Shown one piece after another: positions 11,545 through 38,545 of a DNA stretch of 55,034 nt. Position 1 is the first letter of the stretch; every line of letters begins with the position of its first letter. Origin of the DNA: a virus; the IMG/VR virus record IMGVR_UViG_3300022074_000051, positions 1 to 55,034 of that record, one strand, 5' to 3'. The notes under the pieces are model-generated. The model did no database searches. It worked only from the letters and a program-made list of their open reading frames with translations, and had not been told where the DNA came from. The translations under genes were made by a program, and so were the position numbers.

Positions 11545-13353
11545 TTAGTTAGAACCTTCTTCTCCAAGAAGTCCTCGGACAAGAACGATACCGTACATGT
11601 CAGGACGAACCATCTTCTTCGCATAGCGAGTCATGACGCCCTTACGAGGTACAAAATCCTCTGTTCCGAAGATTGTTGGAGTGGTCTGTAGTGGCACATA
11701 AGGTGCATAAACATAACCAGACTCAAGGAAAGAGTTTCCTCGACGTCCAACAAGGATAGCAGCTCTTGGGAAGTAAGGATCAACGATAACGTCGAACTTA
11801 CGGCTAAGAGCACCGACCTTAACAGCTCCAATGTCACCCTTATCAGCATCAGCAGTTACGTTTGCACGGAACCCACTGGTGAATTCAAGAATGTTAGCAA
11901 CTTCAGGAGAACAAACTACAAAGTTAGCTCCACCACGAAGTGTCTTTCTGTGGATCTGAGCAGAAACATCATTGATGGTTTCAATGAGAGTCTCATACCA
12001 TTCGGAAACAGTTCCAGTGAAGTCAGGAGCAGCCGAAGATGCACCAAGTTCTTGACCAGTTTCTCTGTTAACAAAGAGTCCAGGAGAACGAGACCAGTAA
12101 TAAGTTGCAGCAGTTGCGCCGTTTACAAGGTCAGCAAGAATCTCACGGTCAATCTCAAGAGCAATTTGCTCTGAAAGGATTGAAGTCAACTCAACCTCAG
12201 CATCCAAGTTGTGGTATGCGTTAAGGTCTTGTCCCAACTCAGGAGTCCACTTAGCTTTAAGCTTTTTGGTCTGAGCTGTGATCGCTGTTGAATCAACCTT
12301 GATGTCGATTTCTGGAATGTTTGCATTCTTTTCCAATTCGAAAAGATCACCAACAACCGCACCAACAGTCGAAGAGTTGTCAATTTGATCTTTAACTGGG
12401 TATGTAAGTTTGTTCATAGCAATATCACCAGAGTCTGATGTGTTTCCAGCAGTAACAGTTCCACCTGTAAAAACGTAACGAACAGCTTTCAAAGTGGTTG
12501 CAGCATCAGCAGCAGAAGCCAAAGAGGTCAAACGACGAATTTGTGTGATTGCCGCTCCAGCAGCAACAATTCGAGCTTGCGCTTCGGTTGCATCAAAGAT
12601 GAACGCAGAAAGGTTATCAAAATCAGGATCACCCTCAGCAGCAACGTGGTCTGCCTCTTCAATATCAACTACTATAACACCCTGTGAAGAGTCAGTAATT
12701 GCTAGAAGATCTGGGTCAAATTTAATAAGCTTTTGGTTAGCTTCGCTAACTGCGCCGTCAAGGGTGAAAGCAGCTTTAACTTGATATCCGTTTGCATCTC
12801 CAGTAACTTCAGCGTTGTTACTTCCAGATGGTGAGCCATATGCATATCCGACCATACCAGAACGCCCAGGTCCTCCAAGGTCTTCTTTGCTAGAGCCAAT
12901 CAGCGAGACACCATCGATAACACCAGCACCAAGCTTGTCAGTACCATAGATGGATTGAGTTCCACCTTGTGTGTTTCCAAAGCGACTACCTGAAACACTT
13001 GATCCGCCCTCTTCGTCACCATAAGTGAAGTCAAGGAAGAAGATCAGTCCAGAAGGCAAGCTCATGGGCTGAACGCTTACAAGTTCATTTGCGATAAGTC
13101 CGGCGAATACACGACGAACGATTGGAAAAGCAACAGCAGCGAAACCTTCAACGTCACCAGCTCCCAAAGAGGAAGCCTCACGAAGAAGTTCTTTAGCTTG
13201 GTTTTCCAAGAGACGAGCCATTGAAGACTGTTGTCTTTGAGTGGTCAATCCCTCAAGTAGTCCTGTTTGAGACCACTTTTCAAGAAGAGCAGCGCCCTCC
13301 GCTTTCATATCACGGTTAACGATGCCTTCTGTCAATTTTTCAATAATAGACAT
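11545..13353 (-). CDS. 23: Major capsid protein (gp23)
   Basis: 602 residues. FPIVRRVFAGLIANELVSVQPM, then GLIFFLDFTYGDEEG, is the conserved N-domain start of T4-like gp23. Later TLRGGANFVVCSPEVANILE, FDVIVDPYFP and a C-terminal ...YAPYVPLQTTPTIFGTEDFVPRKGVMTRYAKKMVRPDMYG confirm it. T4 gp23 has 521 residues, and the additional length is an Ala/Asp-rich insertion around residues 170-320. A prohead protease site L57-R-E59/A60 lies just before the mature shell domain, like the T4 site at E65. Further candidates are LTE/G and LLE/G upstream. The scaffold gene precedes it by 25 bases and a strong terminator follows. The protein forms the head shell. Confidence 0.95.
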   Translation of the reverse strand: MSIIEKLTEGIVNRDMKAEGAALLEKWSQTGLLEGLTTQRQQSSMARLLENQAKELLREASSLGAGDVEGFAAVAFPIVRRVFAGLIANELVSVQPMSLPSGLIFFLDFTYGDEEGGSSVSGSRFGNTQGGTQSIYGTDKLGAGVIDGVSLIGSSKEDLGGPGRSGMVGYAYGSPSGSNNAEVTGDANGYQVKAAFTLDGAVSEANQKLIKFDPDLLAITDSSQGVIVVDIEEADHVAAEGDPDFDNLSAFIFDATEAQARIVAAGAAITQIRRLTSLASAADAATTLKAVRYVFTGGTVTAGNTSDSGDIAMNKLTYPVKDQIDNSSTVGAVVGDLFELEKNANIPEIDIKVDSTAITAQTKKLKAKWTPELGQDLNAYHNLDAEVELTSILSEQIALEIDREILADLVNGATAATYYWSRSPGLFVNRETGQELGASSAAPDFTGTVSEWYETLIETINDVSAQIHRKTLRGGANFVVCSPEVANILEFTSGFRANVTADADKGDIGAVKVGALSRKFDVIVDPYFPRAAILVGRRGNSFLESGYVYAPYVPLQTTPTIFGTEDFVPRKGVMTRYAKKMVRPDMYGIVLVRGLLGEEGSN

Positions 13354-13378: not shown

Positions 13379-14437
13379 TTAGTCTATGCCAGCAAGCTTT
13401 TTCATTCTATCTGAGAAAGAATGGTTTTCGGTCAAAGTTTCTTGCTTGCGGCGTGGCAGAACGTGTGAGAGGTTAGACCTTCTGTTGACGGACTCACTCA
13501 GTGATTGTGGACCTTTCTGAGAGGTCCCCACTGTAGCTTCTTTAAGAGTCTCGTATAGAGATCTAGCTTCTTTTAAACTTTCTGCCTTAGCGATGGCTTC
13601 GACAATTTTTGACTTTTGTCGCTCATTCAAGGAGGCATCGCGTAAAACTTTGTTTGAGTATAGTAAACGTGCGTTTTGTACAAGAGCTTCTTCTAGGTTT
13701 CCTTTCATATCTGATATGGCACCATGAAGGCGGTCTTGTAACTTCTTATAATTAACAATAGAGTTTTTTAAATTTTCCATTTCACCGGAAAGTTCATCTG
13801 CTCTTTCTTTGTATTCTGTGGATTGTTGTCTTGCCAATTCAAGCTCTTTATCATATGCTATTGTTCCGTCATCGGTAACAAAGTGACCATGCTTGTCTTC
13901 GGAGGTATCAACAACCAATGCTTCTTCAAGATTCTCTTCCTCTTCGGATTCCTCCAACATAGACAAAAGTTCTTCAAGCATCTGTTCTTCATTGTTTTCT
14001 GATAGCAAATCTGCTAAAGGATCACCACCGGCAGGCTCTGCGGCTGGCTCGGCTGGTGGAGCACCTCCGACATCTTGAGCCACTTGTTGAGTGGTTTCTG
14101 GCTGATCACCACCAGATTCAGGATCTGCTTCTGCTTGATCTTTTAGATTGCCAAGATCCAAAGTAAAATCATTGATATCGAATTCAAATTCAATCTCAGC
14201 GGACACTTCTTGGTCTGGCTGCGTCATGGGATCAGAGGCGTACGGTATATCGTACTGGCCACCGTCAGCAACAGCTTCAGGAGCCTCTTGGATTACTTCT
14301 TTACCTTCTAACAAGGATTCAACAGCGGCCTTTATTTCTGGCGCGTACTTTTCAATTACGGAATGCTCCGCATTCTTAAGGGCAGCTTCTCGAAGAGCCT
14401 GTGCGTCGACGATTGCTTGGTCTAACATTGATGACAT
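13379..14437 (-). CDS. 22: Prohead core scaffold protein (gp22-like)
   Basis: 352 residues, highly acidic in the middle (runs of Glu/Asp, with a Pro/Ala-rich linker near 120-145) and helical at both ends. The opening DQAIVDAQALREAALKNAEH and KYAPEIKAAVESLLEGKE resemble T4-like gp22. It contains many sites of the gp21 protease type (L/I-x-E before A, G or S): LRE/A, LLE/G, LEE/A twice, LKE/A twice and LSE/S, as expected of a core protein that is degraded in the maturing head. It lies directly before gp23, as in T4. In T4 gp21 also adjoins this gene; here gp21 is 10 kb away. Confidence 0.85.
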   Translation of the reverse strand: MSSMLDQAIVDAQALREAALKNAEHSVIEKYAPEIKAAVESLLEGKEVIQEAPEAVADGGQYDIPYASDPMTQPDQEVSAEIEFEFDINDFTLDLGNLKDQAEADPESGGDQPETTQQVAQDVGGAPPAEPAAEPAGGDPLADLLSENNEEQMLEELLSMLEESEEEENLEEALVVDTSEDKHGHFVTDDGTIAYDKELELARQQSTEYKERADELSGEMENLKNSIVNYKKLQDRLHGAISDMKGNLEEALVQNARLLYSNKVLRDASLNERQKSKIVEAIAKAESLKEARSLYETLKEATVGTSQKGPQSLSESVNRRSNLSHVLPRRKQETLTENHSFSDRMKKLAGID

Positions 14438-23865: not shown

Positions 23866-24072
23866 CTATTTTCTACGTTTTCTCTCTTCTTTAATTCTAC
23901 GACGAACAGCACGAGCTTTTGCCTTCCTTCGTTTCTCAGAAGGCTTAGTGTGATGACGTCGTTCTCTAACCTCATCAATTATACCAAGTTTTTTACATTT
24001 TTTTATAAAGCGCTTGATGACGCGCTCAATGTTGTCTTTACGACGAACTTTTACTGAATAGTTGGTTCCCAT
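23866..24072 (-). CDS. rpsU: Phage-encoded 30S ribosomal protein bS21
   Basis: 68 residues: SVKVRRKDNIERVIKRF, KKCKKLGIIDEVRER, KPSEKRRKAKARAVRR. These align by eye along the whole bacterial bS21 (VKV..NE.FD.ALRRFKR.CEKAGVL.EVR.RE...KP...RK.AKA.AV.R). The length and basic tail are normal for the family. bS21 binds near the anti-Shine-Dalgarno region of the 30S subunit and affects initiation. A phage copy could replace the host protein and favour phage mRNAs. Phage-borne bS21 genes are known from marine phages. It is the last gene of the terminase-portal-protease run, and its ATG overlaps the preceding stop (TAATG). Confidence 0.92.
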   Translation of the reverse strand: MGTNYSVKVRRKDNIERVIKRFIKKCKKLGIIDEVRERRHHTKPSEKRRKAKARAVRRRIKEERKRRK

Positions 24073-24485
24073 TATTTACCTGCCATTTTTGACCATATAG
24101 CGGAAGACTTGCTCATAAAAGAAGAAATGTCCACACCAGGATCGCCCGGCTCAACTCCACTTAATGCGCTGTTTGTTCGTCCTTCAGAAACAGAAGGCGC
24201 TGGTGTCGTCCCTTCAAACAGATTAACACCGTTGTAAGCATCTTGGCCAACAGCTTCCATCATTTTTTTTCTTTGTTGTTCAAGTCTTGTTTTTGCTTGT
24301 TCGTTTGTTTCGTATTGTGGTTTTTGTTTTACTTGAGGAGCTTGCTTGGTTTCAACGATAGGTTGCCCCATGCCTCTAACTACCTCAGATACAACAGAAG
24401 AAAGAGCACCTTCTTCAAATATTACTTCGCGAATACACTCTTTAATCAATGGTTTTAAAACGCTTTTTAATTCTTCTTTTTTCAT
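24072..24485 (-). CDS. Unknown protein between gp21 and bS21
   Basis: 137 residues. The N-terminal 35 residues form a clear amphipathic helix (KKEELKSVLKPLIKECIREV, then IFEEGALS), followed by a Gln/Lys-rich linker (about 45-75) and a Gly/Ser/Pro-rich C-terminus ending SAIWSKMAGK. I do not recognise it. The helix recalls the N-terminus of the 31222 protein (KEQLRQIIKEEL), so both may carry a head-targeting or assembly tag. The cleavage context is not the classic L/I-x-E/A, however. Its start overlaps the end of gp21 by one base. Confidence 0.7.
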   Translation of the reverse strand: MKKEELKSVLKPLIKECIREVIFEEGALSSVVSEVVRGMGQPIVETKQAPQVKQKPQYETNEQAKTRLEQQRKKMMEAVGQDAYNGVNLFEGTTPAPSVSEGRTNSALSGVEPGDPGVDISSFMSKSSAIWSKMAGK

Positions 24486-25117
24486 TAGTCCCTCAAGATC
24501 TTACTAAATAGATTGTCAATTTGATTTTGCTTGTTCTCTCTTATCTTGACACTAAAAGCATCAGAGCCGAACGCTTGCTTTTTGCTATCTGGATATACAA
24601 ATGCATCTGGTGTTGACGGCTCAGAGACAATATCAAAACAAATAAGCTGAAAGTCCTCATTAACCGTGGACGTCCCATCTAAGCCTTCGTTAACCGAGCC
24701 AAGACCTCTAGACGATATACCGAGCTTGACACCGGCATTGATAAGGTCTTTTAAAATTCTACCTGATGGTGTGTCAAGAACTTTTATCTTACCCATGACG
24801 TCATCACCCTGCCACCAGCACTCAACGATAATATGAGAAACATTTTTAAGGTTTATGACTGAGTCATCCGGGTGGTCTAGTTCACCAGTCGCTCTACTGT
24901 CTTTGACAATCTTTTGATAGTTTGTGATTTCCTTTTCTAGAACTTTACGAGGATATACTCTTCCGTTACCGTTCTTCTTACCTGCTGTTTGAATACGACC
25001 AGTAAGATAAACGGCCCCTTCCTCAACAACTTCGCGCTTTTGTCTTTCGCTAAGCATATCGAGGCAGCGCCCATTAGGGCATAATTCAAAAAATTCTGTT
25101 AATAATTGTTTACTCAT
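24485..25117 (-). CDS. 21: Prohead core protease (gp21)
   Basis: 210 residues, close to T4 gp21 (212). The catalytic His lies in GELDHPDDS (H82) and the Ser in KLGISSRGLGSV (S135/S136), spaced as in the T4 gp21/herpes-like S78-U9 prohead protease family. NGNGRVYPRKVLEKEI is a further family hallmark. The enzyme cuts scaffold, capsid and internal proteins at L/I-x-E sites during head maturation. It carries its own early LLTE/F site, which could be used for self-cleavage. ATG 25117 has GGAG upstream. The nearby substrates gp22, gp23 and the tagged 25556 protein all show candidate sites. Confidence 0.92.
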   Translation of the reverse strand: MSKQLLTEFFELCPNGRCLDMLSERQKREVVEEGAVYLTGRIQTAGKKNGNGRVYPRKVLEKEITNYQKIVKDSRATGELDHPDDSVINLKNVSHIIVECWWQGDDVMGKIKVLDTPSGRILKDLINAGVKLGISSRGLGSVNEGLDGTSTVNEDFQLICFDIVSEPSTPDAFVYPDSKKQAFGSDAFSVKIRENKQNQIDNLFSKILRD

Positions 25118-25196: not shown

Positions 25197-25207
25197 TTCT
25201 TCATCAT
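25154..25207 (-). CDS. Possible 17-residue ORF with strong ribosome site
   Basis: ATG 25207 has AAGGAG 6 bases upstream and overlaps the stop of the 25204 gene (ATGA). It encodes MMKKWMLQPVRRCCSGS. It competes with the other frame at 25110-25196. At most one is likely to matter. Confidence 0.25.
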   Translation of the reverse strand: MMKKWMLQPVRRCCSGS

Positions 25208-25539
25208 AATGTGCTCCTTCTTGAACAGTTGCAGTTTACTTTTTGGCTTTGAGTCCTAAGCCCATCGTCATTTATTATCATGGATAAGATGTACGACGAA
25301 CCAGCGGAAACACAACCGCAAATAAATGCGTTTGCTAAATTATATTCAAATGTAAATAGTTCTGTAAATCCGTTTATAGAAAACAAAAATACTCCGACCC
25401 AGAAACCCATACAAAGCGGACAGTGAAAAAGCGTGTTCCATTTCTTTGTATAATCTTTTGGTGGACGAATATCTTCAAATATCTTGCCATACACAAGAAT
25501 AAAAGTCATGCCGTAACAGGCAAGGATAAAATTTAACAT
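25204..25539 (-). CDS. Small membrane protein with CPLC motif (DUF1360-like)
   Basis: 111 residues. The first hydrophobic segment is at residues 1-20 (LNFILACYGMTFILVYGKIF). A second follows the motif HCPLCMGFWVGVFLF, and a third near residues 70-88 (NAFICGCVSAGSSYIL). The CPxC-x-GFW pattern is that of a small integral membrane family found in bacteria and phages (DUF1360 from memory). Its function is unknown. The C-terminal tail NCNCSRRSTL is hydrophilic and Cys-rich. It lies between the GNAT-like gene and the protease. Confidence 0.65.
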   Translation of the reverse strand: MLNFILACYGMTFILVYGKIFEDIRPPKDYTKKWNTLFHCPLCMGFWVGVFLFSINGFTELFTFEYNLANAFICGCVSAGSSYILSMIINDDGLRTQSQKVNCNCSRRSTL

Positions 25540-25555
25540 TTAAACTCCGTTATGT

Positions 25556-26275
25556 TTATAGTCCCTGTTCTTTTGCTAGTTCATCAGAATACACATCCGA
25601 AAAGCGATTGGCACCTCTGTCAGATAGTTGTTTTTCTAGCCATTTCATATCTTTACCATTCTTTAAATATCTGATATTCAATAAGTGATTTCTTATTAGT
25701 TTTTTGTAAGTTTGCCCTTCAGCACTTGTGTTTTGTTTTTCAAACGAATGATCTGTTGCTAGTTTGTCTGGATCTCCATATAAGCCAACGTCACAATCAT
25801 CATCCGGATCAGGAGTGCTTTTATTGTAATCAAACTCTGAGTTGTTCTCGCCGGTCTCTCTTTTGGTATACTCGGCAGACGCTTCTATTTTGCTCCAAAC
25901 TTTATCTTTTGCTACATCAGTTGTTCCAGCAGAATGGTCCGATGTTACTCCGTATCCTTTATCCTTCGCTATAGCGAATAGTGAATCATATAATATTTTA
26001 GAAAAACCTTTTCCTCTTGCCTGATTCTCAGTATAAACTGCTTCTATTTCGTAAGTTTTTGGAATGCAAGGTTCATTTGTTTGGCCGTATGTCATGTACC
26101 CAACAATGTACATTCCATTATCCGTAATAGTTGGCATCATATGATATAATATCAATTCACCATTGTCTCCATTATCTTCATGAAAAAGAGACAGCTCTGC
26201 AAACTTTTCGGGTTGATAATCGTACAAAGGGCTTTCAGTTAAGAACCTTCGCCAGTTTTCCATTATAAGTTTCAT
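25556..26275 (-). CDS. GNAT-like acetyltransferase with capsid-targeting N-terminus
   Basis: 239 residues. Residues 77-110 (IEAVYTENQARGKGFSKILYD) carry the acetyl-CoA-binding motif A of GNAT enzymes (Q85-x-R-G-x-G90) after a beta strand and before a helix. The N-terminus MKLIMENWRRFLTE/S has the length and L-x-E/S end of T4 capsid-targeting sequences (such as MKTYQEFIAE/A of the internal proteins). The same nine residues begin the unrelated CDS at 38084. The gene lies two genes before the prohead protease. Inference: an enzyme packaged in the head, trimmed by gp21 and injected to acetylate a host target. The C-terminal 90 residues are acidic then helical and unrecognised. It could instead be a cytoplasmic enzyme. 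Confidence 0.72.
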   Translation of the reverse strand: MKLIMENWRRFLTESPLYDYQPEKFAELSLFHEDNGDNGELILYHMMPTITDNGMYIVGYMTYGQTNEPCIPKTYEIEAVYTENQARGKGFSKILYDSLFAIAKDKGYGVTSDHSAGTTDVAKDKVWSKIEASAEYTKRETGENNSEFDYNKSTPDPDDDCDVGLYGDPDKLATDHSFEKQNTSAEGQTYKKLIRNHLLNIRYLKNGKDMKWLEKQLSDRGANRFSDVYSDELAKEQGL

Positions 26276-26877
26276 TAGTAAGTGTACCTTCCGTATAAAT
26301 ATGGAGCAAAGAGATTGTGCTGTACGATAGAACCTTTCTCTTCCTCGTGAGGAACTTCTCCAAGTTCCGTTGAGTGGTCGGCATCAGGCTCCAGTAGTGC
26401 ATCTTCCATTTGTTCATCATGGCCCTTTGTTGCTTCTATATATGGGGCTTCTGAGCCTATCCATTCGGATATTTGATATAGAGCAGAACTAACAGAGTCT
26501 CTTTCTTTAGACTCATGTATCTTACCCTCTAGTGAGCCATATACATTACCGCCTTGTATCGAATCATACTCAATGATCCCTACCCGACGTAAGTACTCCA
26601 TCAGCCGAGACTCAGCCCCGTAGGCAACTTCGGAAACCAAGTCTTTTGCAAAAGCAACAACTTTTTTCTTTTCTCGCATAACAATGATATCAATATCCTT
26701 GTGATCAAATATCATCAAGTCTCCGTTCAAAGCCTTGCGCATATTCAGAGCAAAATTAAGAGTCTGTTTGTTGGAATTTACAATCTCAACATTTATAGTT
26801 GGCTTAACTTCAACCTCAATATTTTTATCAACGTCGACACTGATAGTCTCTTCCGGCTGTACAATTTTAACTTTCAT
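26275..26877 (-). CDS. Unrecognised protein of portal-protease cluster
   Basis: 200 residues. A beta-rich N-terminal part (EETISVDVDKNIEVEVKPTI, NVEIVNSN) is followed by a mixed region with LMIFDHKDIDIIVMREKKKVV and an acidic C-terminal third (EQMEDALLEPDADHSTELGE) ending YLYGRYTY. I know no family for it. The genes on each side overlap by 1 and 11 bases, so it belongs to the head operon. In T4 the equivalent place holds small prohead core genes (67, 68). No sequence similarity to those is visible to me. Confidence 0.7.
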   Translation of the reverse strand: MKVKIVQPEETISVDVDKNIEVEVKPTINVEIVNSNKQTLNFALNMRKALNGDLMIFDHKDIDIIVMREKKKVVAFAKDLVSEVAYGAESRLMEYLRRVGIIEYDSIQGGNVYGSLEGKIHESKERDSVSSALYQISEWIGSEAPYIEATKGHDEQMEDALLEPDADHSTELGEVPHEEEKGSIVQHNLFAPYLYGRYTY

Positions 26878-27673
26878 TTTTACTTATCTCCGCAACCAGG
26901 TCTTGAATATAAAATACGTCCTCAACCATTTTCTTATCGATTGGTTTTGTCGAAAAACTTTCCAACTTCTCTCCAACCATGGCAAGCTTGTCTTTATAAC
27001 TAGTCTCGGATAACAGAGTGACTTGCTTCTTTAATCTACCAAGCTCCTCATTCATAAATGACTTAAGCCCCAAACCGTTGTCGGAGAAAGACGTAATATA
27101 GTTAGATAGCAGTTCTCTTTGTTCTGTTTGTAGAGTTCTCTTGTATGTTTCATTAAACTTATTGACAAACGTTTTATATTCTAAGGAGTCTAAAGGTTTC
27201 ATCGCTTCCTCATTCTTTGGCCGAGAATGCGAAATAACGAGGTCTTTTACCCTATCCTCTATGAGCAGCCTAGTCTTTGGTTTAAGGCCGCTAGAATGGA
27301 AATACTGGCCAACTGTGGCTATGTTTTTATAGTTAGGTACAAAGTTTGCAAATGCGTGTGGAACATGCACATTAAATTCTTTGATAAGAATGGTTTGAGC
27401 ATTAAATATTTTTTTTCTGTCTAACTCATCCCAGTCCTTTTTGACCTCTGTGATGAACCGTTTTCCAAAACTCTCAGCAAGATCTTTTGTTTCAAGCAGT
27501 TGTTTGTACATCTGTAGATCTTCGTACAACGGGGTGCCCTTTGAGAAGTTTCTTTTAAGCATATTAACTACTGTTTCTTTTGTCTGCTCATCTTTACGTA
27601 CGATAGCTTTTGTTGTTTCTTTGATAAGACATTCATAAAGAAAAGCGGTATTTCTTTTCTTATTGTGTTTCAT
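26867..27673 (-). CDS. Unrecognised helical protein next to portal
   Basis: 268 residues, Lys/Glu-rich and mostly helical, with no membrane segment. The opening KKRNTAFLYECLIKETTKAI and later RFITEVKKDW and TYKRTLQTEQRELLSNYI suggest a soluble coiled or bundled structure. It overlaps the portal gene end by 14 bases. A prohead core or portal-associated assembly role is plausible from position alone. Alternative roles cannot be excluded. Confidence 0.7.
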   Translation of the reverse strand: MKHNKKRNTAFLYECLIKETTKAIVRKDEQTKETVVNMLKRNFSKGTPLYEDLQMYKQLLETKDLAESFGKRFITEVKKDWDELDRKKIFNAQTILIKEFNVHVPHAFANFVPNYKNIATVGQYFHSSGLKPKTRLLIEDRVKDLVISHSRPKNEEAMKPLDSLEYKTFVNKFNETYKRTLQTEQRELLSNYITSFSDNGLGLKSFMNEELGRLKKQVTLLSETSYKDKLAMVGEKLESFSTKPIDKKMVEDVFYIQDLVAEISKNES

Positions 27674-29567
27674 GTTTTTTCTCCTTTAAATATAGACCTT
27701 CCAACAGGTCTTCAACTTCTTTTGATATTGAAAACAATCTTTCTTCATCGTGTTCGATATTTTCTTTTCGCTTATACAGGTTTGACATGCCACCGTAGCC
27801 CATAGCCCCATGGTGTGTTGTCCTAGGTGTTCCTTGTTCCGGCGTACTCCAGTTTGTAAACTGCTTATTGAGAGCGCCCTTGTTGGTTATATATGGTGGC
27901 CTAATAACCTCATCATCTCTCTTGGCGGGTGGAGGCTCGGCGAGAAGATCAGAATCACCCCCTTTGTCACCCCCGGTTTCCCCAGTGGGTGTCTCGCCGG
28001 CTCCAGTATCGCCAGGAGGGGTGTCGGCTTGTTCGGCATCAGATGTGCCACCAAGCGCACTCATCCCACCAGCGACTCCTCCGTCTCCGCCTGCTCCCTC
28101 AGCGGCTTCACCGCCAGCAGATGCAGCATCAAGTTTCGCAGCGTACTTTTTATCAAAGAACATTTCTCTTTGATTACGTAAGAACTCGTCTTCAGACATT
28201 CCGAGCAAGTTTTCTGCAATCCAGCGCTTTGAAAAGTAACCTTCTGTGGCTGATCCTGCAATGTCAAATTTTTGCTTCCAATGCTCAAGCTCCTGAAGTT
28301 CTGCTATTTTAGAAGGGTTGTTAAGTTGTAATTTGAAAGAAAGAAGATCATCCTCTCTATATCCTAAAGTATACAAGTGTATTATACCTATTTTTTCAAG
28401 CTCTGAGGTCATAATTCTTTGCAAGCGTTGAATGGTTCTAGCGAAACGAATATCTTTTTGAGCCAAAGTTGTCTTGTCTTCCGTGGCGCCCTCTCCCATT
28501 GAAAGGTATGATTGTGGGACTTTTAGTGCTGAAAAGAGCTTATCTCTAAGGTATTTAACATCGTCAATACCACCATTATAGGTAGCACCTGGTAGACTGG
28601 ATATATCGGTAGTACTTTGCCCGCCACGAATAGGAATGTAATAGTCTTCCTCAACAGACAAAGGATTGTATCTCAAATCAACTTGCCCTGTTTTGGGATT
28701 GGTAACTTGGTGACGTTTCATTTGCGTCATTACTTTTTGCATATATTGTTCGACTTCTTGTGGCGGAATACCGCCAACATCAATTTTAAACACACGACGC
28801 TCAGGAGCACGAACAATACGATAAGCCATCATAGCATCTTCAAGCAATATAAGCTGTCTGTGTATTCTTCTGGCTGGTTCCAAGATAGATGTTCCATAGG
28901 GAGCATGTTTGTCATTACCCAACACTCTAAAGTGTGCAACCTGCCAATTCTCTAGCGTGAGAGCGGCAGTGTTCCATTGGTACTGTACGTAATTTGGATT
29001 GGTCTCATCTTCGCCTTCTAATCTTTCTATCTCTTGGGGAGGTAAACCAATTGCTGCTCTGATGCCGAGATGCTCATCGATATCTAGGTAAAGAAAGAAG
29101 TCTCCGTACTTACACATTGTTCTGCAATATCCGAACAGGTTTTGTTCAATATTTAGCACATTGTGATACAGGTTCTTAAGAATGTGTTTTATTTCTTCGT
29201 TTGCACATTTTATCCTAAGCATTGGACGGATATCAGTGTGAGTTGTCATCTCATCAGCGTAGATGTCTAGAGACGAAGCAATCTCTGGTACGTACTCCAT
29301 TTCGTCAAAATCAACATATCGCTCAGCACGGTTCCTGTTGGATATCATACTCAGTGTCAAATTGTTAATTGGGTTATATTCCCATTTTTTAAACTGTTTG
29401 CCAGACGCTGACTTGAATCTGGATGCGTACATGTCTAAATGCCTACGACGCAATTGTCGTCCTGTCTGTGTTTTTCTTTGAGTTATCGGTCCAGAAAACA
29501 ATCTAGTCAACGCTTTAAACAAATCCGACTGCGGATTGTAGGGCGATTTTTTATTTCTATTTGCCAT
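27660..29567 (-). CDS. 20: Portal vertex protein (gp20)
   Basis: 635 residues. RAERYVDFDEMEYVPEIASSLDIYADEMTT and YGDFFLYLDIDEHLGI match T4-like portal signatures, as do RAPERRVFKIDVGGIPPQEVEQYM and LPGATYNGGIDDVKYLRDKLF. T4 gp20 has 524 residues. The extra length is a disordered Gly/Ala/Asp/Pro-rich segment (about residues 490-560) before a short basic-acidic tail. The dodecamer forms the DNA entry vertex and docks the terminase. It follows the terminase gene, and a strong sigma70-type promoter and a late-type motif lie in the 61-base gap. Confidence 0.93.
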   Translation of the reverse strand: MANRNKKSPYNPQSDLFKALTRLFSGPITQRKTQTGRQLRRRHLDMYASRFKSASGKQFKKWEYNPINNLTLSMISNRNRAERYVDFDEMEYVPEIASSLDIYADEMTTHTDIRPMLRIKCANEEIKHILKNLYHNVLNIEQNLFGYCRTMCKYGDFFLYLDIDEHLGIRAAIGLPPQEIERLEGEDETNPNYVQYQWNTAALTLENWQVAHFRVLGNDKHAPYGTSILEPARRIHRQLILLEDAMMAYRIVRAPERRVFKIDVGGIPPQEVEQYMQKVMTQMKRHQVTNPKTGQVDLRYNPLSVEEDYYIPIRGGQSTTDISSLPGATYNGGIDDVKYLRDKLFSALKVPQSYLSMGEGATEDKTTLAQKDIRFARTIQRLQRIMTSELEKIGIIHLYTLGYREDDLLSFKLQLNNPSKIAELQELEHWKQKFDIAGSATEGYFSKRWIAENLLGMSEDEFLRNQREMFFDKKYAAKLDAASAGGEAAEGAGGDGGVAGGMSALGGTSDAEQADTPPGDTGAGETPTGETGGDKGGDSDLLAEPPPAKRDDEVIRPPYITNKGALNKQFTNWSTPEQGTPRTTHHGAMGYGGMSNLYKRKENIEHDEERLFSISKEVEDLLEGLYLKEKKHETQ

Positions 29568-29628: not shown

Positions 29629-31212
29629 TCATCCTTTGAAAATCCAAACAAATTCTTTTGCTTGACTGATTTCTTCTTTGTACTTGTTTTCAAACTTTGT
29701 GTCATGGCTCTTCATACCTGGAATGGTTGTACTTAGAGTTTTGTTTGTTGAGTACATTGCATTGACCATCGCTTTTTGATATTCCATTTCTTTTTTCGAT
29801 ACCTCTAGGGAAGTGTCTCTAACCCAACAGGCGATTGCCATAGACATTATTAAATCATCATGATAGCTTCTCATAGCCTGTGGTTTTCCATTGTTCCAAA
29901 TAAATGTTTTAACTTCGTGAAATAGACGTGAAGATCTTGGCTTGATAAGTTTATTCCTGATATATTCTTCTAGCTTTGCTACAATGAGCGGCCTCGTTTT
30001 ACTAGACGTGGTGAAGCCCATTACCGCTCTATCGTTATATTCTCCTTGCAGTGCGTCAATATATTCATGAGTCGACTTGATAGAATAATATATCTTAGGG
30101 TATTCAAGGTCTCTTAGTTTCTCTAAAACAGATATACCGATACCAACGTTCTCAACAACAAGCAGACAGTTTCCATACTCCTTACCAGCATCATTGAGTA
30201 TATGAGAGTAATGATCTAGCGTTGGTTTTCCCTGGTACTCTGCTACAACCTCCATCGTATCAGTACGCAACACATGAAAGACCGAAGAGTCGGCGCCATC
30301 ACCTCTTGCAACATCAGCAACCAAAAGATAAGGCACACCCTCTTGATATCTCTCCCATATCCAAAGATTTCTATCAAAGCCGGTCTTGTATTCTGGTTCA
30401 CATATCTGTTCATGTATCCAAGCTATATCGTCAGGGTGTATGACAGTTTCGCCTGATGTATTAAAATTACACTCAAGCTCTTGTGCTATTTGTCTCCGAG
30501 ACATGTTTTTAGTCTCTTTCTCAAACCAAGATTGATCGCGCTCCGGGTGCACATCCCATGGAAGCGAGATAGGGTGAAACTCGTTGTCACCAGCCTCAGA
30601 ATCAACATAAGTTCTGTGGAACCAGTTACCAACACCCATAGGAGTTGATAGGGCAATGCAGCGACCACCTGTTGATAGAGTTGGGTAAAGACCTGCCCAG
30701 AGTTCTTCAAGTCCTTCGACGTGAGCAGCCTCGTCAATAATAAGAAGAGACAGTGCCTCTGAACGACCAGCATCGGCTGAGGTTCCGACGGCTTTTATCG
30801 TTGAGCCATTAGATAACTCAAACGAGTTTCTGTTGTCGATTGTAATCTTGGCCACCTTCATCCATGGTGGTAGATTCTTCATAACGCTTTTGACTTTCTT
30901 GACAAGGTTTGCGGCTGTTGTAAACTTGGTTGCCATTACAAGAATGTTCTTTTCTTTGTGAAACAACATAAACCAAACAGCATAAGCAGCCGAGATCGTT
31001 GAGATCCCAAGCTGTCTTGCTTTGAGAATGACATTGAAACGATAATCGTTAAAGTCTCTTAATAAGTCATCTTGATAAGGATAAGTATTAAAAGGAATAA
31101 GACCGCGAAGTGGGTGAGAGATCCGGCAATAGTTGTTAATAAAATATACCGGATCTTTTCCCGACTTTACGATCTCTTTTACAATCTCTTGTTTTGTTAA
31201 CTTAAGAGTCAT
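29629..31212 (-). CDS. 17: Terminase large subunit (gp17)
   Basis: 527 residues (T4 gp17 has 610). Walker A-type LKARQLGIST is at residues 63-72, and Walker B LSLLIIDEAAHV has D160 and E161. The nuclease domain shows VADVARGDGADSS near residue 300, LLVVENVG near 350 and YHDDLIMSMAIA near 440, the acidic triad of the RNase H-like fold. The enzyme cuts concatemers and pumps DNA through the portal. No clear small terminase (gp16) is visible next to it. The 31222 and 31593 proteins are positional candidates only. Confidence 0.95.
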   Translation of the reverse strand: MTLKLTKQEIVKEIVKSGKDPVYFINNYCRISHPLRGLIPFNTYPYQDDLLRDFNDYRFNVILKARQLGISTISAAYAVWFMLFHKEKNILVMATKFTTAANLVKKVKSVMKNLPPWMKVAKITIDNRNSFELSNGSTIKAVGTSADAGRSEALSLLIIDEAAHVEGLEELWAGLYPTLSTGGRCIALSTPMGVGNWFHRTYVDSEAGDNEFHPISLPWDVHPERDQSWFEKETKNMSRRQIAQELECNFNTSGETVIHPDDIAWIHEQICEPEYKTGFDRNLWIWERYQEGVPYLLVADVARGDGADSSVFHVLRTDTMEVVAEYQGKPTLDHYSHILNDAGKEYGNCLLVVENVGIGISVLEKLRDLEYPKIYYSIKSTHEYIDALQGEYNDRAVMGFTTSSKTRPLIVAKLEEYIRNKLIKPRSSRLFHEVKTFIWNNGKPQAMRSYHDDLIMSMAIACWVRDTSLEVSKKEMEYQKAMVNAMYSTNKTLSTTIPGMKSHDTKFENKYKEEISQAKEFVWIFKG

Positions 31213-31221
31213 ACTCTCCTA

Positions 31222-31596
31222 TTAGGACTTGCTATCAAATCCATACGATGAAAACTCTTCACCAGCTCGACCTCTAAGTTCCGGTGATCTCATACTAGCA
31301 GACATTCTGCTGGCGAGTTCATCATCAAAAATATCTATTGTTGGCCCTGATGGGTCCATGTACACTCTGGCCATTAATTGACCAGTTGTTTCATCTATAT
31401 AGTCTACTACTTTTTGGCCTTGCATCTCGCGCTCTTCTTCTCTGGTATTTTTTTCCATTTCTGATGTTGCTATGTTGTATGCTTGGTTTTCTAAATTATC
31501 CAATGTCAGTAAAGGTCGCGGACCAGACTCTTCGCTCATTACGGCTTCGAGTTCTTCTTTAATAATTTGTCTTAGTTGTTCTTTCGTGATTCTCAT
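31222..31596 (-). CDS. Unknown small acidic protein before terminase
   Basis: 124 residues, beginning with an amphipathic helix (RITKEQLRQIIKEELEAVMS), a start seen in several marine phage proteins from memory. The rest is acidic (NTREEEREMQGQKVVDYIDE) and ends in a Ser-rich tail SSYGFDSKS. It overlaps the 31593 gene by four bases (ATGA) and precedes terminase by 9 bases. A small terminase is possible by position, but no helix-turn-helix is evident to me. Confidence 0.65.
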   Translation of the reverse strand: MRITKEQLRQIIKEELEAVMSEESGPRPLLTLDNLENQAYNIATSEMEKNTREEEREMQGQKVVDYIDETTGQLMARVYMDPSGPTIDIFDDELASRMSASMRSPELRGRAGEEFSSYGFDSKS

Positions 31597-38083: not shown

Positions 38084-38545
38084 TTACCCACCGGCTGCGG
38101 CTATTGAATTTAAATCAGTTTGGGCGCCTTTTTTCATGATGGTTGCAACTGTTTCGAGATCATCCATATCTAAATCACCAGCATACCATTTAGATGCTGC
38201 ATACGCCAATGCCATTATCGCAGGAGCTGCATTCGCTAGTTTCTGTCCGCCGGGACGATCTTTTAAGGCATCAATCATCGACATGCCTTTAACCGATAAA
38301 GAAGCCATAGCATCATCAATAAGTCCTTCGTCTACGGGTAGGGCTTCAATTTCAGAAAAGAACGACATCAATTCTTTGAACTGTGCGTCTTGTTGTAGTT
38401 TGTCAAAAACGGCTTCAACCTTTTCATCAGGCAAAGAATCCTTAGCAGCAGAGTTCAGGAACGTTGTAATTTGTTTCTGATCGGCTTCTAGTAATAAGCG
38501 ACTGGTTCTCCAGTTCTCCATTATAAGTTTCATATCGTTAGACAT
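38084..38545 (-). CDS. Putative capsid-targeted internal protein
   Basis: 153 residues from ATG 38545 (MSND then MKLIMENWRTSRLLLE/A), with AGAGG 8 bases upstream. An internal ATG at 38533 gives exactly the tag. The tag MKLIMENWR is identical to that of the GNAT-like gene 12 kb away; the first 27 bases of tag DNA agree at 25. It also ends in an L-x-E/A protease site. The rest is helical: a soluble domain (residues about 20-90) and a hydrophobic helix (ANAAPAIMALAYAASKWYAG) followed by MDDLETVATIMKK. Inference: a second head-internal protein, perhaps membrane-active after ejection. No known family. Confidence 0.65.
   Translation of the reverse strand: MSNDMKLIMENWRTSRLLLEADQKQITTFLNSAAKDSLPDEKVEAVFDKLQQDAQFKELMSFFSEIEALPVDEGLIDDAMASLSVKGMSMIDALKDRPGGQKLANAAPAIMALAYAASKWYAGDLDMDDLETVATIMKKGAQTDLNSIAAAGG

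Follow-up and report, generated by a model that had tools for sequence, protein, structure and literature searches.

The window, by which we mean the whole 55,034-base stretch of DNA analysed here, is an IMG/VR record from an uncultured, probably marine phage of the T4 type. A sequence-only reading had proposed an open reading frame in its middle to be a GNAT-like enzyme that is packaged in the phage head. This ORF exists and is encoded on the minus strand, which had been left unstated (Table 1). It begins MKLIMENWRRFLTE/SPLYD, the slash marking here and below a proposed cut, and its ATG and the stop of the gene upstream overlap (TAATG), so that late production alongside the head proteins is to be expected. 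The gene is co-oriented with its neighbours, all of which lie on the minus strand in a run of terminase, portal, two conserved genes, GNAT, a membrane protein, the S77 protease and a probable core protein, with a scaffold candidate and then the Gp23 capsid protein following further on. The prohead protease that had been noticed nearby is indeed present, with one small gene between it and the GNAT gene. Profiles served to assign the protease and the capsid protein, position and synteny the terminase and the portal, and the gene at the place of the portal candidate is annotated as Gp20 in a cultured relative. The gene of the probable core protein lies close to the protease in most related genomes.

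Table 1. Features of the window, with positions counted from its first base.
Feature	Position	Strand	Basis
Major capsid protein Gp23	11545-13353	-	Pfam Gp23 6.7e-74
Scaffold candidate	13379-14437	-	
Probable prohead-core protein, conserved, MKKEELKSVLKPLIKECIREV...	24072-24485	-	Tag-B-like N-terminus
Prohead protease, T4 gp21 type (Peptidase_S77)	24485-25117	-	Pfam 2.6e-34; PHROG 207 head maturation protease 4.2e-58
Small membrane protein, next after the GNAT slot	25204-25539	-	Synteny
Whole ORF (239 aa): tag, GNAT domain, C-terminal region	25556-26275	-	
Family signature STPDPDDDC (TPxDPxDDC), residues 153-161	25793-25819	-	Invariant T, P, D and C positions in alignments
GNAT core, residues 28-138	25862-26194	-	AlphaFold model, PDB matches
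Acetyl-CoA loop QARGKGFS, residues 85-92	26000-26023	-	RxxGx[G/S] register in most orthologues
Tag A, MKLIMENWRRFLTE, residues 1-14; proposed capsid-targeting propeptide, cut after E14	26234-26275	-	Tag on unrelated families, T4 spacing, low pLDDT
Conserved head-operon gene directly upstream, stop overlapping the GNAT start	26275-26877	-	Synteny, sequence
Portal protein	27660-29567	-	Synteny, position by terminase
Terminase	29629-31212	-	Position and synteny
Tag-B type protein, MRITKEQLRQIIKEELEAVMSE/E	31222-31596	-	N-terminal sequence; tag B modular
Second tag-A protein, MSNDMKLIMENWRTSRLLLE/A... (start also MKLIMENWRTSRLLLEA), about 150 aa, unrelated body	38084-38545	-	28-nt match to GNAT 5' end

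The proposed GNAT fold is strongly supported. The Pfam family PF00583 (Acetyltransf_1) matches the ORF at 1.3e-6, with 29.1 bits against a curated cut-off of 20.7, and an AlphaFold model built from a more diverse alignment (A3) reached a mean pLDDT of 80.7 and a pTM of 0.80, superseding an earlier model (pLDDT 56) whose alignment consisted mostly of close copies and distant degenerate members. The modelled core comprises strands at residues 29-34, 38-47, 54-65 and 74-82, a helix at 91-105, a strand at 109-111 and a helix at 120-132, and from residue 29 onward this predicted succession follows the GNAT order. The best 50 PDB matches are nearly all named acetyltransferases, the remainder being GNAT toxins or GNAT-type entries; RimI-type enzymes and SSAT are among them, and the top structure match is a RimI-type enzyme. 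Foldseek gave these matches probabilities of 0.97-1.00 at E-values of about 1e-3 to 1e-2, and a PDB profile search returned weak acetyltransferase matches. With such modest E-values the assignment of the modelled structure to the GNAT fold is firm, and placement in a particular family was not reached. The acetyl-CoA motif that had been claimed at residues 77-95 was located more exactly, since the loop QARGKGFS falls inside this range; it reads Q85-A-R-G88-K-G90, corresponding to Q/RxxGxG/A, and in the model sits between strand 74-82 and helix 91-105. Residues 1-18 have a pLDDT below 50 and stand outside the modelled fold.

The N-terminus, here named tag A, recurs on other proteins. The first 28 bases of the GNAT gene are found again at 38506-38533 of the window in an unrelated ORF (5.2e-6), and the degenerate pattern MKLIMENWR matched at least 119 virus stretches in IMG/VR at ORF starts, in many cases with MSD or MSE in front; a control pattern of identical composition in scrambled order had no match in IMG/VR. 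Bacterial and archaeal genomes totalling 257 Gb contained the pattern a single time, on a member of the GNAT-like family. These numbers place the IMG/VR count far above chance. This sole GTDB match (L364, CP070664.1) lies in a WOR-3 MAG on a protein with the WGPLLYD sequence described below; it may represent a prophage or a mis-binned phage and may offer a host lead. Among the matches listed, 114 tag-A proteins, clustered after removal of 17 residues, fell into 52 families with unrelated bodies. At positions on which the search had not selected, F or Y stands at residue 11 in 40 of the 52 families (maximum in within-protein shuffles, 12) and E at residue 14 in 32 (shuffle maximum 14), the full motif F/Y-L-x-E at residues 11-14 is present in 23 (shuffle maximum 3), and L, I or V is conserved at position 12, likewise outside the search pattern. 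Past residue 16 conservation drops toward background, and an [LIVM]xE ending within residues 12-16 is missing from 16 of the 52 families. The L-x-E end to which the sequence-only reading had pointed is upheld by its enrichment across families, whereas a bare [LIVM]xE is uninformative for one protein, as it occurs near the start of 19 of the 42 window genes. Since synonymous codons vary within the tag, it is the protein sequence that is conserved. That the N-terminus merely opens the GNAT fold or serves to initiate translation, as could be thought from the Pfam alignment beginning at residue 8, is thus extremely improbable, given its occurrence on 52 unrelated bodies among the matches listed, its disorder outside the predicted model, the varying codons and a GNAT orthologue that carries a different tag; as a part of the fold it was ruled out by the bodies, the disorder and this orthologue.

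Several tag-A proteins have recognizable cargo domains, namely an amidase (L105:6699-7517), an M23 peptidase (L026:3181-3984), a C5 cytosine methylase (L065:1442-2416), a P-loop kinase-like domain (L091:2143-3153) and a cytidylyltransferase-like (nucleotidyltransferase-like) domain (L084:7502-8095). In isolate genomes (50,697 INPHARED records) nothing convincing was found for either the tag or the GNAT, and neither tag sequence was found quoted in the literature searched. In the cultured Flavobacterium phage immuto two adjacent genes (L365:912-2212), located near the terminase and an S77 protease 45% identical to that of the window, start MADNFNLRSFLTENKLTKN and MENFDLKKFLVENKLTTN, with the FLTE/FLVE-type N-termini MADNFNLRSFLTE/N and MENFDLKKFLVE/N.

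Tag A resembles the capsid-targeting sequence (CTS) of phage T4 in being a short N-terminal peptide on unrelated cargo with a protease-type site at its end and an S77 protease in the operon. In the T4 IPIII peptide, residues 4 and 7 serve targeting and residues 8 and 10 processing, and a change corresponding to E14D blocks its cutting (PMC9026906); IPII and IPIII begin MKTYQEFIAE/A in the T4 record, and their Y4-F7-I8-E10 corresponds in spacing to W8-F11-L12-E14 of tag A. In contrast to the T4 CTS, tag A has a different sequence (ENWRRFLTE, with W for Y), is 14 residues long instead of 10, and its form was not found in the 50,697 phage records. An LxE-type site is also suggested by the capsid protein, as the stretch KELLRE/[AV]S, conserved in an alignment of the window protein and five relatives, was taken from the sequences as the putative end of the propeptide (AKELLRE/AS in the window, E59), and the N-terminus of T4 gp24, MAKINELLRE/S, is the same kind of sequence. 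Among the matches listed, 16 of 29 tag-A records encode an S77 protease, and these include all 12 that reach 120 kb or more; this co-occurrence, counted in tagged records, may partly come from shared ancestry.

A second modular N-terminus, tag B (MKITKxQLRxIIKEE...LLxE), is present on a GNAT orthologue as MKISKARIRKIILEE. The strict tag-B pattern matched at least 120 stretches, and among the matches listed 136 proteins formed 100 families, of which 77 have an LxE ending within residues 20-25 (shuffle mean 13, maximum 26); 14 of the 16 large tag-B records listed encode an S77 protease. The loci L244-L323 carry tag B, and one contig has as many as five tag-B genes within 1.6 kb. Like tag A, tag B was not found in the isolate collection. 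It is probably another head-targeting tag. The two tags replace each other on related bodies: the window GNAT with tag A is 39% identical to the tag-B orthologue of L201, and in a second family (phrog_2859) the tag-B protein of L191 is 54% and 42% identical in its body to the tag-A proteins of L187 and L178, respectively. In the 54% pair the similarity starts at the proposed cut, and in the 42% pair a few residues earlier, within the tags. A tag-B orthologue of the GNAT matches PF00583 with 28.6 bits. The phrog_2859 genes (L178:2564-3562, plus strand; L187:8998-9873, minus strand; L191:12604-13503, plus strand) lie near the protease, and their products, which contain 'HIMDGHHRW', look ParB/DdrB-like by eye. 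In 16 related records the slots around the protease are occupied by accessory genes, which mostly carry tag A or an MKITKxQLRxIIKEE-type start.

That the tags direct proteins to the tail, the baseplate or a phage compartment instead of the head could account for the many tagged genes outside the head operon, such as about six tag-A genes clustered at G001:78000-84500, a long way from the protease of that 190 kb phage record. We consider such a destination very unlikely, because of the LxE ending, the T4 spacing with its processing residues and the tagged genes in the slots beside the protease, and because, among the matches listed, all large tag-A records and 14 of 16 large tag-B ones encode an S77 protease.

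The GNAT gene stands between the same two head-operon neighbours in 23 loci, a few of them nearly duplicates, and identities fall as low as 31-36%; the tag-B versions of L201, L227, L232 and L240 lie across the terminase, on its other side. In a tag-blind sample, for which members were chosen by the C-terminal TPDDPxDDC and which comprised 28 distinct proteins with complete 5' ends, 17 carry tag A, 4 tag B and 7 neither, several of these seven beginning with a short stretch that ends in LLxE. With modularity, the LxE ending, the T4 spacing, tag swapping and this fixed slot, the capsid-targeting reading that had been given to the N-terminus is strongly supported. L205 (3780-5174, plus strand) and L206 combine tag A, a large domain and a C-terminal GNAT in one protein. 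An ART identity of the additional domain in L205 (YRG...SxS...E) was suspected by eye and found no support in Pfam, PHROG, NCBIfam or PDB; the same suspicion for a tag-B protein with 'GYHATNTG...GGGFYLFSDKNRA' (L192:15246-16073, plus strand), which lies between the two usual flanking genes of the GNAT, found none in Pfam, PHROG or NCBIfam. In a distant branch (L009-L015, L225, L237, L364) a WGPLLYD/E-like sequence replaces the acetyl-CoA loop and TPxDxxDDC is kept. These proteins may be non-acetylating relatives, and with the loop lost in the WGPLLYE branch and weakened in L007, GNAT activity may not be universal across the family.

The chief rival is that the GNAT is packaged by its tag and works within the prohead, either as part of its core or by acetylating head proteins, and is no host modifier. 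The slot conserved in 23 loci and the distant branch, which keeps its signature despite a degenerate acetyl-CoA loop, would both agree with such a role. However, in many sampled genomes of the clade the slot holds other tagged genes or none, so that the GNAT is not required for assembly, and the other tag-A proteins, among them a cytosine methylase, a P-loop kinase, an M23 peptidase and an amidase, look more like an accessory payload; we therefore regard a role inside the prohead as rather unlikely.

The best overall explanation, which we consider likely, is that the tagged, head-associated GNAT is packaged, cut, ejected and acetylates a host protein. The first 14 residues would bind the prohead core as a capsid-targeting sequence, and the S77 protease, as the proposed remover of the tag, would cut after E14 and free residues 15-239 within the head. 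On the sequence comparisons, packaging by the tag and this cleavage are very likely. The freed GNAT would then leave the head together with the DNA; ejection, suggested by the T4 precedent, is fairly likely. Early in infection the ejected enzyme would most probably acetylate a host protein, for which we see an even chance by analogy with Alt, with the GNAT domains of polyvalent proteins (PMC5512222) and with Rac (PMC7552054). One point against this explanation is the fixed slot, unlike the freely exchanged internal proteins of T4, with which an assembly role would also fit.

Compared with known systems, T4 Alt (PMC9026906) follows the same proposed logic of a host-modifying enzyme in the head with a cleaved N-terminal propeptide, but is an ART and has no sequence relation to the window GNAT. 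Calling the GNAT a new type of delivered host modifier went too far, as GNAT domains, often beside an ART domain, were already proposed in 2017 in the polyvalent proteins of phages, which are predicted to be packaged and injected (PMC5512222). These GNATs were described as RimI-like, as is the best structure match of the window GNAT, but are domains of large multidomain proteins, whereas the family studied here is mostly stand-alone, with a short tag predicted to be cleavable and a fixed slot. Rac, a GNAT of phiKMV-like phages, turns off host transcription and is thus a phage GNAT able to hit the host RNA polymerase; it is a protein of the infected cell that the abstract does not present as virion cargo, and it is not known to carry a tag (PMC7552054). 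The inner-body propeptides of SPN3US and phiKZ are also cut after glutamate, and some paralogues share identical N-termini (PMC5694885), but they are mostly longer and have A-x-E or S/A-x-E sites, unlike tag A.

The principle is that of T4. Measured against the literature searched, what is new is the tag's sequence class, the existence of a second tag, the broad range of cargo, and a GNAT that mostly stands alone and keeps a fixed place in the head operon. The pair of tags is the larger result, a variant of the T4 system from which the head cargo of uncultured phages can be predicted, with a far larger cargo repertoire than the T4 CTS, many enzymes included, and a second interchangeable tag class. 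We somewhat favour the view that ENWRxFLxE and MKITKxQLRxIIKEE...LLxE form an interchangeable, cleavable cargo code of a large uncultured T4-type clade, loading into the head more than 100 families that include host-modifying fixed-slot GNATs. Injected effectors of uncultured phages are usually invisible, as they bear no sequence mark. If the tags are capsid-targeting sequences, every tagged gene becomes predicted virion cargo, and the tags would supply a short, testable packaging signal together with a list of candidate host-takeover or anti-defence proteins (acetyltransferases, methylase, kinase, peptidoglycan hydrolases). If this holds for the GNAT, the principle of T4 Alt would be widened from ADP-ribosylation to acetylation, by a stand-alone enzyme.
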